Of a DNA stretch of 64,000 nt, positions 42,857-43,753 are shown piece after piece. Under the pieces are notes generated by a model. That model saw only the letters and a program-made list of their open reading frames with translations, had not been told where the DNA came from and searched no databases. This DNA is from a virus, in IMG/VR virus record IMGVR_UViG_3300032236_000643, positions 1 through 64,000 of that record; one strand, written 5' to 3'. Position 1 is the first letter of the stretch, and each line of letters begins with the position of its first letter. The position numbers and the translations under genes were made by a program.

Positions 42857-43753
42857 TTAGTAACCTGCCATCGTGAGTGCGGATGCGAGTGATTTAGAAA
42901 AACCGGTGGATGTGTATGTCGCACCTGAAATAGCAGCAATGTTTGCTGTGTTACCAACGATGGCCTCGTAGATCATCGTTGGATTGGTCGGATCATTGTT
43001 GAGCCCGGCCATCGTTGCAACGTTGTACTTAAGAATGTTTTTACTTGTGGAGTCCGTAGGTGCAAGCGGCGTCGCAAATGTGATCGCCGTGATCTTGCCG
43101 CCTGTGATCGTTGCTCCAACTTGAACTGAATAGGTTTCGTTCGCATCAGGAATGAAAACTGTTTGCACAGATCCTGCGTACGTTCCGTCAACGACAGTTT
43201 TCTGCGTTACAGACGGTGTAGGAGTGGGCGTGGACGTTACAACAGGTGATGGAGTGGGTGTGACGGTTGCAGCCGGATTAACAACGGCCTTAGCTGTTAC
43301 CTTCGCATTATTCTGCTGGTCCTTAAGAATCGTGGTTGTACACGTGTACTTCCACGATTCACCAACGCTGAGCTGCTTGTCAGAATTCGTATCACCGGTC
43401 TGGAAAACAACATTCGAGCACTTGTCATCCGTCACGTTCACGTTAGTAAACGACGTGTCGGACGAGAGGTTAGAAACCGTATACGAATACGTAATCTTTG
43501 ACCCCGGCGTCACCGTGACGGGTGAAACACTGGTTGTGAGCGACAGTTGGGGCGACCTCGCGTACGCCCAAGTCCCCGCTGAGGCTTCTACCTGAACGGG
43601 AGTGTCCAGATTTGTGTCTGGTGGTAATGGTGCTGACGGATCAGCTAACGCTGAGTGCATTAAGTTGTAGGACAGGAGCGCGCCGAAACCAACAGTCGTA
43701 CCTACTACTGCTGATACGGCGCGCCCCACGTTTGACATACCTTTTCCGCTCAC
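42857..43753 (-). CDS. Exported protein with Ig-like domain and FMN-binding domain
   Basis: 298 residues. GTG 43753 has AAGAAGGG six bases upstream; ATG 43738 is the alternative. The first ~37 residues are a signal peptide (basic start, VSAVVGTTVGFGALLSYN, ALA cleavage site). Residues ~70-160 resemble a DUF11-type surface domain (ITYSYTVSNLSSDTSFTNVN, VGESWKYTCTTT). A Pro/Thr-rich linker (~170-195) follows. The C-terminal ~105 residues are an FMN_bind domain: DGTYAGSVQT, GGKITAITFATPL and SGATYTSTGFSKSL, where Thr281 is the probable site of covalent FMN attachment by a host ApbE enzyme. Such domains move electrons outside the membrane. No redox partner or ApbE is encoded here. Confidence 0.82.
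   Translation of the reverse strand: MSGKGMSNVGRAVSAVVGTTVGFGALLSYNLMHSALADPSAPLPPDTNLDTPVQVEASAGTWAYARSPQLSLTTSVSPVTVTPGSKITYSYTVSNLSSDTSFTNVNVTDDKCSNVVFQTGDTNSDKQLSVGESWKYTCTTTILKDQQNNAKVTAKAVVNPAATVTPTPSPVVTSTPTPTPSVTQKTVVDGTYAGSVQTVFIPDANETYSVQVGATITGGKITAITFATPLAPTDSTSKNILKYNVATMAGLNNDPTNPTMIYEAIVGNTANIAAISGATYTSTGFSKSLASALTMAGY

Follow-up and report, generated by a model that had tools for sequence, protein, structure and literature searches.

The minus-strand gene at positions 42857..43753 of the window, i.e., the whole stretch of 64,000 nucleotides analysed here (bases 1-64000 of the 70,410-base virus record G000), encodes a protein of 298 residues, predicted to be secreted, with an FMN_bind domain and the acceptor motif for flavinylation. 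We consider it probable that this protein is an electron carrier with covalently bound FMN supplied by the phage, which would be charged by the ApbE of the host and reduced by a reductase that the host provides in the case of this phage, and that the phage itself provides in the case of its relatives.

The FMN_bind protein and its acceptor site

The gene starts with a GTG codon preceded by AGAAGGG. According to its hydropathy, the N-terminus of the product (residues 1-37, 43643..43753) resembles a signal peptide that ends in SALA and is followed by DP; the AxA-D position is common to the phage proteins and their chromosomal homologues. Residues ~67-162 (43268..43555) form a DUF7507/DUF11-like domain, for which the match to PF24346 (25.9 bits) is just below the 27-bit cut-off; in homologues of this protein the same profile scores above it. 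This domain is followed by a linker rich in proline, threonine and serine that was identified from the sequence (residues ~163-185, 43199..43267), and by the FMN_bind domain (residues 186-298, 42860..43198), all of them on the minus strand. A previous sequence-only reading of this DNA had proposed a signal peptide and a linker, and both appear to be present, the AxA-D position and the TP-rich composition being their respective marks; the DUF7507/DUF11-like domain was absent from that reading. The protein is probably extracytoplasmic.

The same reading had assigned the protein to FMN_bind and had suggested a profile search. At the level of sequence this assignment was confirmed, given that PF04205 matched the protein with 24.2 bits against a cut-off of 22 (E 5e-5), and that over the 70-kb virus record the profile gave a single match, with this protein, of 27.2 bits. 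A sequence search of the PDB retrieved one chain, 8p2a, that corresponds to the flavinylated SaFMN3-D2 (E 1.8e-5). The segments GGKITAITF and SGATYTS are located at residues 218-226 and 276-282, and when SGATYTS plus flank is written as a degenerate DNA pattern, the window contains one match, versus 0.00 expected. A chance motif and a bacterial contaminant were both ruled out; the record has capsid and integrase genes, and homologues of the protein are found in phage contigs.

SaFMN3-D2 from Streptomyces azureus carries covalent FMN on Thr72 of its SGAT motif (PMC10339131). In the alignment, Thr72, Ser42 and Ile45 of 8p2a correspond to Thr279, Ser237 and Ile240 of the phage protein, and Tyr208 may be the equivalent of Tyr14, with a loop of different length. 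The SGAT motif of the phage protein comprises residues 276-279 (42917..42928, minus strand), and the alignment and the numbering of 8p2a indicate that the predicted FMN acceptor is Thr279 (codon 42917-42919) instead of Thr281, as was initially put forward; position 281 is occupied by Leu in the closest phage homologue. The structure prediction that had also been suggested gave a full-length model of low mean confidence, the most reliable portion of which is the FMN_bind region; there Thr279 opens the last helix, like Thr72 of 8p2a. The phage protein shares with SaFMN3-D2 the domain, as judged by sequence, the SGAT acceptor, the Ser and Ile positions that contact the flavin, and an extracellular domain set apart by a linker, a location that is predicted for the phage protein. 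It differs in that it is encoded by a phage, has one domain and not three, with DUF7507 attached, and shows an insertion of ~12 residues in the region of the first helix as well as the absence of the consensus Asp.

The consensus of the acceptor site is D-x-x-[S/T]-G-A-[S/T], and it has been reported that replacement of the Thr abolished flavinylation, whereas replacement of the Asp had only a minor effect (PMC12052999). The phage motif, AAISGAT, conserves [S/T]GA[S/T] and lacks the Asp. This residue is also missing in 8 of the ~190 motifs in the bacterial loci that were fetched, in another FMN_bind protein of G152 that is encoded near an ApbE gene, and in one from G718. It is lacking as well in every full-length chromosomal homologue (4/4), and its loss looks like a trait of the lineage rather than the decay of the phage copy.

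The missing Asp could also be accommodated if the FMN_bind fold were devoid of flavin and acted as a binding or spacer module that coats the envelope of the lysogen, for example to block superinfection. The predicted secretion, the Ig-like domain with its linker, and the location of the gene ~4.6 kb from the putative attP are compatible with such a surface protein, as is the presence in the same region of the related phage G001 of a Lipoprotein_Ltp gene (PF07553; L002:4202-4852), 1 kb from its FMN_bind gene. Lipoprotein_Ltp is presumably of the superinfection-exclusion type known from other phages. Nevertheless, SGAT and the flavin-contact positions are kept across the phages, and in related phages a reductase accompanies the gene; for this reason we regard a role in surface display or exclusion as unlikely.

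The gene family in phages and its neighbourhood

Five further contigs with the FMN_bind gene were found in IMG/VR, i.e., those of G001 (locus L002/L004), G840 (locus L144), L150 and L153, and that of L152, in which the gene lies at the cut end of the contig. The closest viral homologue was detected by tblastn with an E value of 1e-117, and PF04205 was above the cut-off in the proteins of the window, L144, L150 and L153. G840 is a phage contig, with genes for terminase, a UvsX recombinase, primase, DNA polymerase, RuvC and endolysin. In the tree, which also included the chromosomal homologues, the phage proteins of full length, five in number, fall into one clade (support 96/99), and in the alignment the insertion of ~12 residues is common to all five. 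SGAT is likewise kept in 5/5, together with the equivalents of Ser42 and Ile45 and a Tyr that perhaps replaces Tyr14. The G001 protein has Ile-Leu in place of Tyr-Thr right after SGAT; one of these two changed residues bonds the flavin ring in 8p2a.

The FMN_bind proteins of G001 and of the window are 68.5% identical, the highest similarity over its length among the proteins common to both phages, followed by the C1 peptidase (53%), a small endolysin-side protein (46%) and the endolysin (41%). Because the FMN_bind protein is more alike between these phages than the other common proteins, the pattern fits an accessory gene that moves among phages. The dN/dS ratio was 0.12 overall and about 0.09 in the FMN_bind domain; these are rough values, given that dS is high, and they suggest a conservative evolution of the protein. 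No homologue of the window protein was present in 50,697 phage records, no PHROG matched the phage FMN_bind proteins, and a viral scan with generic bacterial FMN_bind domains added zero viral contigs, so that the phage family looks narrow at the sensitivity of that scan. Searches of the phage collection with a bacterial FMN_bind domain and with the phage reductase gave partial matches or short fragments lacking annotation, and these were set aside.

One base past the FMN_bind stop codon starts the gene of a C1-type (papain-like) peptidase of 279 residues (42016..42855, minus strand), with a match to phrog_16701 and homologues annotated as 'cysteine protease' in actinophages. Its Cys, His and Asn residues are conserved between two phages. 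The peptidase has no signal peptide, yet its sequence includes a linker rich in proline and, at the C-terminus, a domain of ~45 residues that is also present in L002, L011, L144 and L150. Upstream of the FMN_bind gene, 43845..44267 (minus strand) encodes a small secreted protein that appears lysozyme-like by eye and is weakly similar to a Streptomyces phage 'hydrolase'; it had no Pfam or PHROG match. Terminator-like hairpins on the minus strand were detected upstream (44298..44333, with a 15-pair stem) and, by hairpin search, downstream (41755..41781) of this three-gene unit, and the overall number of such hairpins found equals the chance expectation. In the stretch 41914-41755, a promoter-like site on the minus strand (TTGACA-18-TATACT) is followed ~105 bases on by a terminator-like hairpin, an arrangement that might correspond to a small RNA; the window contained no match to an Rfam family.

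The order of the FMN_bind and C1 peptidase genes is the same in L144 and L150, and in G001 the pair is ~3.5 kb apart. This recurring link is the main reason to keep under consideration an accessory role at the cell wall or in lysis, in which the protein would act at release together with the other two products of the three-gene unit, and its redox domain would be secondary. In Gordonia and Arthrobacter phages, relatives of the peptidase are encoded within lysis cassettes. On the other hand, the endolysin of the window phage is encoded 10 kb from the FMN_bind gene on the opposite strand, the three-gene unit belongs to the leftward region by the integrase, and FMN_bind is not known to act on the wall. 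A lysis function seems to us quite improbable.

Lifestyle and host

A tyrosine integrase (PF00589, PF14659) is encoded at 47171..48286 on the plus strand, and next to it lies a putative attP core (48369..48411, no strand assigned) formed by the 3' part of a tRNA-Val(GAC), with 100% matches of 43 bp in numerous genomes that belong to a single order of actinobacteria. The phage is temperate and its FMN_bind gene lies near the putative attachment site, as is characteristic of genes for lysogenic conversion. The tRNA identity points to a host within that order; this is an indication short of proof, because tRNA sequences are widely conserved. The same order also holds one genome with a major capsid protein 49% identical to that of the phage, and two genomes with tandem full-length homologues of the FMN_bind protein (G152 and G719). 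An actinobacterial host agrees with the WhiB genes found in the phages G001 and G840, and with the relatives of the C1 peptidase, which belong mostly to Mycobacterium, Streptomyces, Gordonia and Arthrobacter phages. A DNA polymerase III alpha-like subunit of 951 residues is also encoded by this temperate phage (50423-53278), with genes for a DnaG-like primase and a DnaB-like helicase in the vicinity.

The chromosomal proteins of G152 and G719 share with the phage protein the complete architecture (signal, DUF7507, linker and FMN_bind), the SGAT without Asp, and 39-49% identity; they differ in that they are encoded by tandem genes among housekeeping genes, and in that they lack the insertion of ~12 residues common to the phage proteins. 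Beside the tandem genes of G152, multicopper-oxidase-like ORFs were recognized by eye (L121:11316-12731).

As stated in the sequence-only reading, no ApbE is encoded by the window phage, and ApbE is absent from G000, G001 and G840. The dependence on the host enzyme that was proposed from this is supported, with ApbE present in 8/8 bacterial genomes checked, G152 included. A substrate gene without ApbE, with the same layout as the host surface flavoproteins, could also be a decoy, i.e., an abundant substrate that soaks up ApbE or FMN of the host and weakens its extracytoplasmic electron transfer in infection. The related phages that encode a reductase appear, however, to build electron flow, beyond titrating ApbE, and among the alternatives we find this one the hardest to credit.

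Reductase genes in related phages and the proposed electron path

The reductase-like protein of G840 is a complete transmembrane protein of 435 residues with the domains Ferric_reduct, FAD_binding_8 and NAD_binding_1, the His pairs H79/H93 and H157/H170 (two-heme), an HPYSLS motif and AAGIGITP. Reductases of this kind are the habitual partners of FMN_bind proteins in the MsrQ-like flavinylation systems of actinobacteria, and as a rule supply them with electrons. Genes for this ferric-reductase-like transmembrane flavocytochrome are present in five viral contigs (L144:503-1810, L150:6001-7308 and, in L151, L152 and L153, 6001-7296), with 72-100% identity. In four of the five (G840, L150, L152 and L153) the FMN_bind gene lies 1.8-4.4 kb downstream of the reductase; the fifth contig stops ~1.8 kb after the reductase, before any FMN_bind position. 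No PHROG matched the phage reductases, and the PF01794 reductase is absent from the 70-kb record of the window phage and from G001. A ferritin-like gene (PF00210) was observed at L150:2065-2514, 3.5 kb upstream of the L150 reductase, and look-alike ORFs, candidates by position, occupy the same spot in L151-L153.

The MsrQ-like flavinylation systems, common in Actinobacteria, consist of a PF01794 protein, an FMN-binding protein and apbE (PMC8238504). The related phages resemble them in having a PF01794 reductase, with a C-terminal NAD-binding domain, close to an FMN-binding gene; they differ in that ApbE is not encoded by the phage (G000, G001 and G840), so that the system is divided between virus and host, and in that the window phage has the FMN-binding protein only. 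This phage does not have a full MsrQ-like system, and its protein may operate within one whose other components come from the host. Giant viruses likewise encode ferritin and proteins predicted to be ferric reductases; these viruses, in contrast, infect eukaryotes, and the portion of that report considered here mentions no FMN_bind partner (PMC9270025).

For the covalent-FMN carrier that we favour, the following path can be envisaged. Sec export would put the FMN_bind domain outside the membrane, and the Ig-like DUF7507 domain together with the flexible linker would space it from the N-terminus. The host ApbE would attach FMN to Thr279 of the SGAT motif, and the flavin would be reduced by a transmembrane NAD(P)H reductase of the MsrQ-like type (PF01794), which would come from the host in the case of the window phage and from the phage itself in its relatives. 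An acceptor located within the envelope or beyond it would then receive these electrons; Fe(III) and oxygen are candidates. From the features described we infer the flavinylation, the location, the direction and target of the electron flow, and the expression from the prophage. The initial claim that electron transfer at the host surface would be altered is backed indirectly by the membrane electron donor that the related phages encode, and tempered by the missing canonical Asp; nothing supports the light-absorbing role that was offered along with it.

A more tentative proposal, which we see as possible, is that actinophages have a working path of their own from NAD(P)H to the surface, made of the two-heme reductase and the covalent-FMN carrier, with a ferritin-like protein encoded in the neighbourhood; only ApbE would be borrowed from the host. 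During infection, such a path would transfer electrons to Fe(III) or to some other external acceptor, and the window phage would carry its detachable carrier half.

Extracytoplasmic electron transfer by means of flavins occurs widely among bacteria. For bacterial viruses, no report of it was found in the open literature searched. If the module works, the redox chemistry of the host surface, and possibly the supply of iron, would be altered by phages during infection or in lysogens, and viruses of this family may rewire electron flow at the surface of their hosts.
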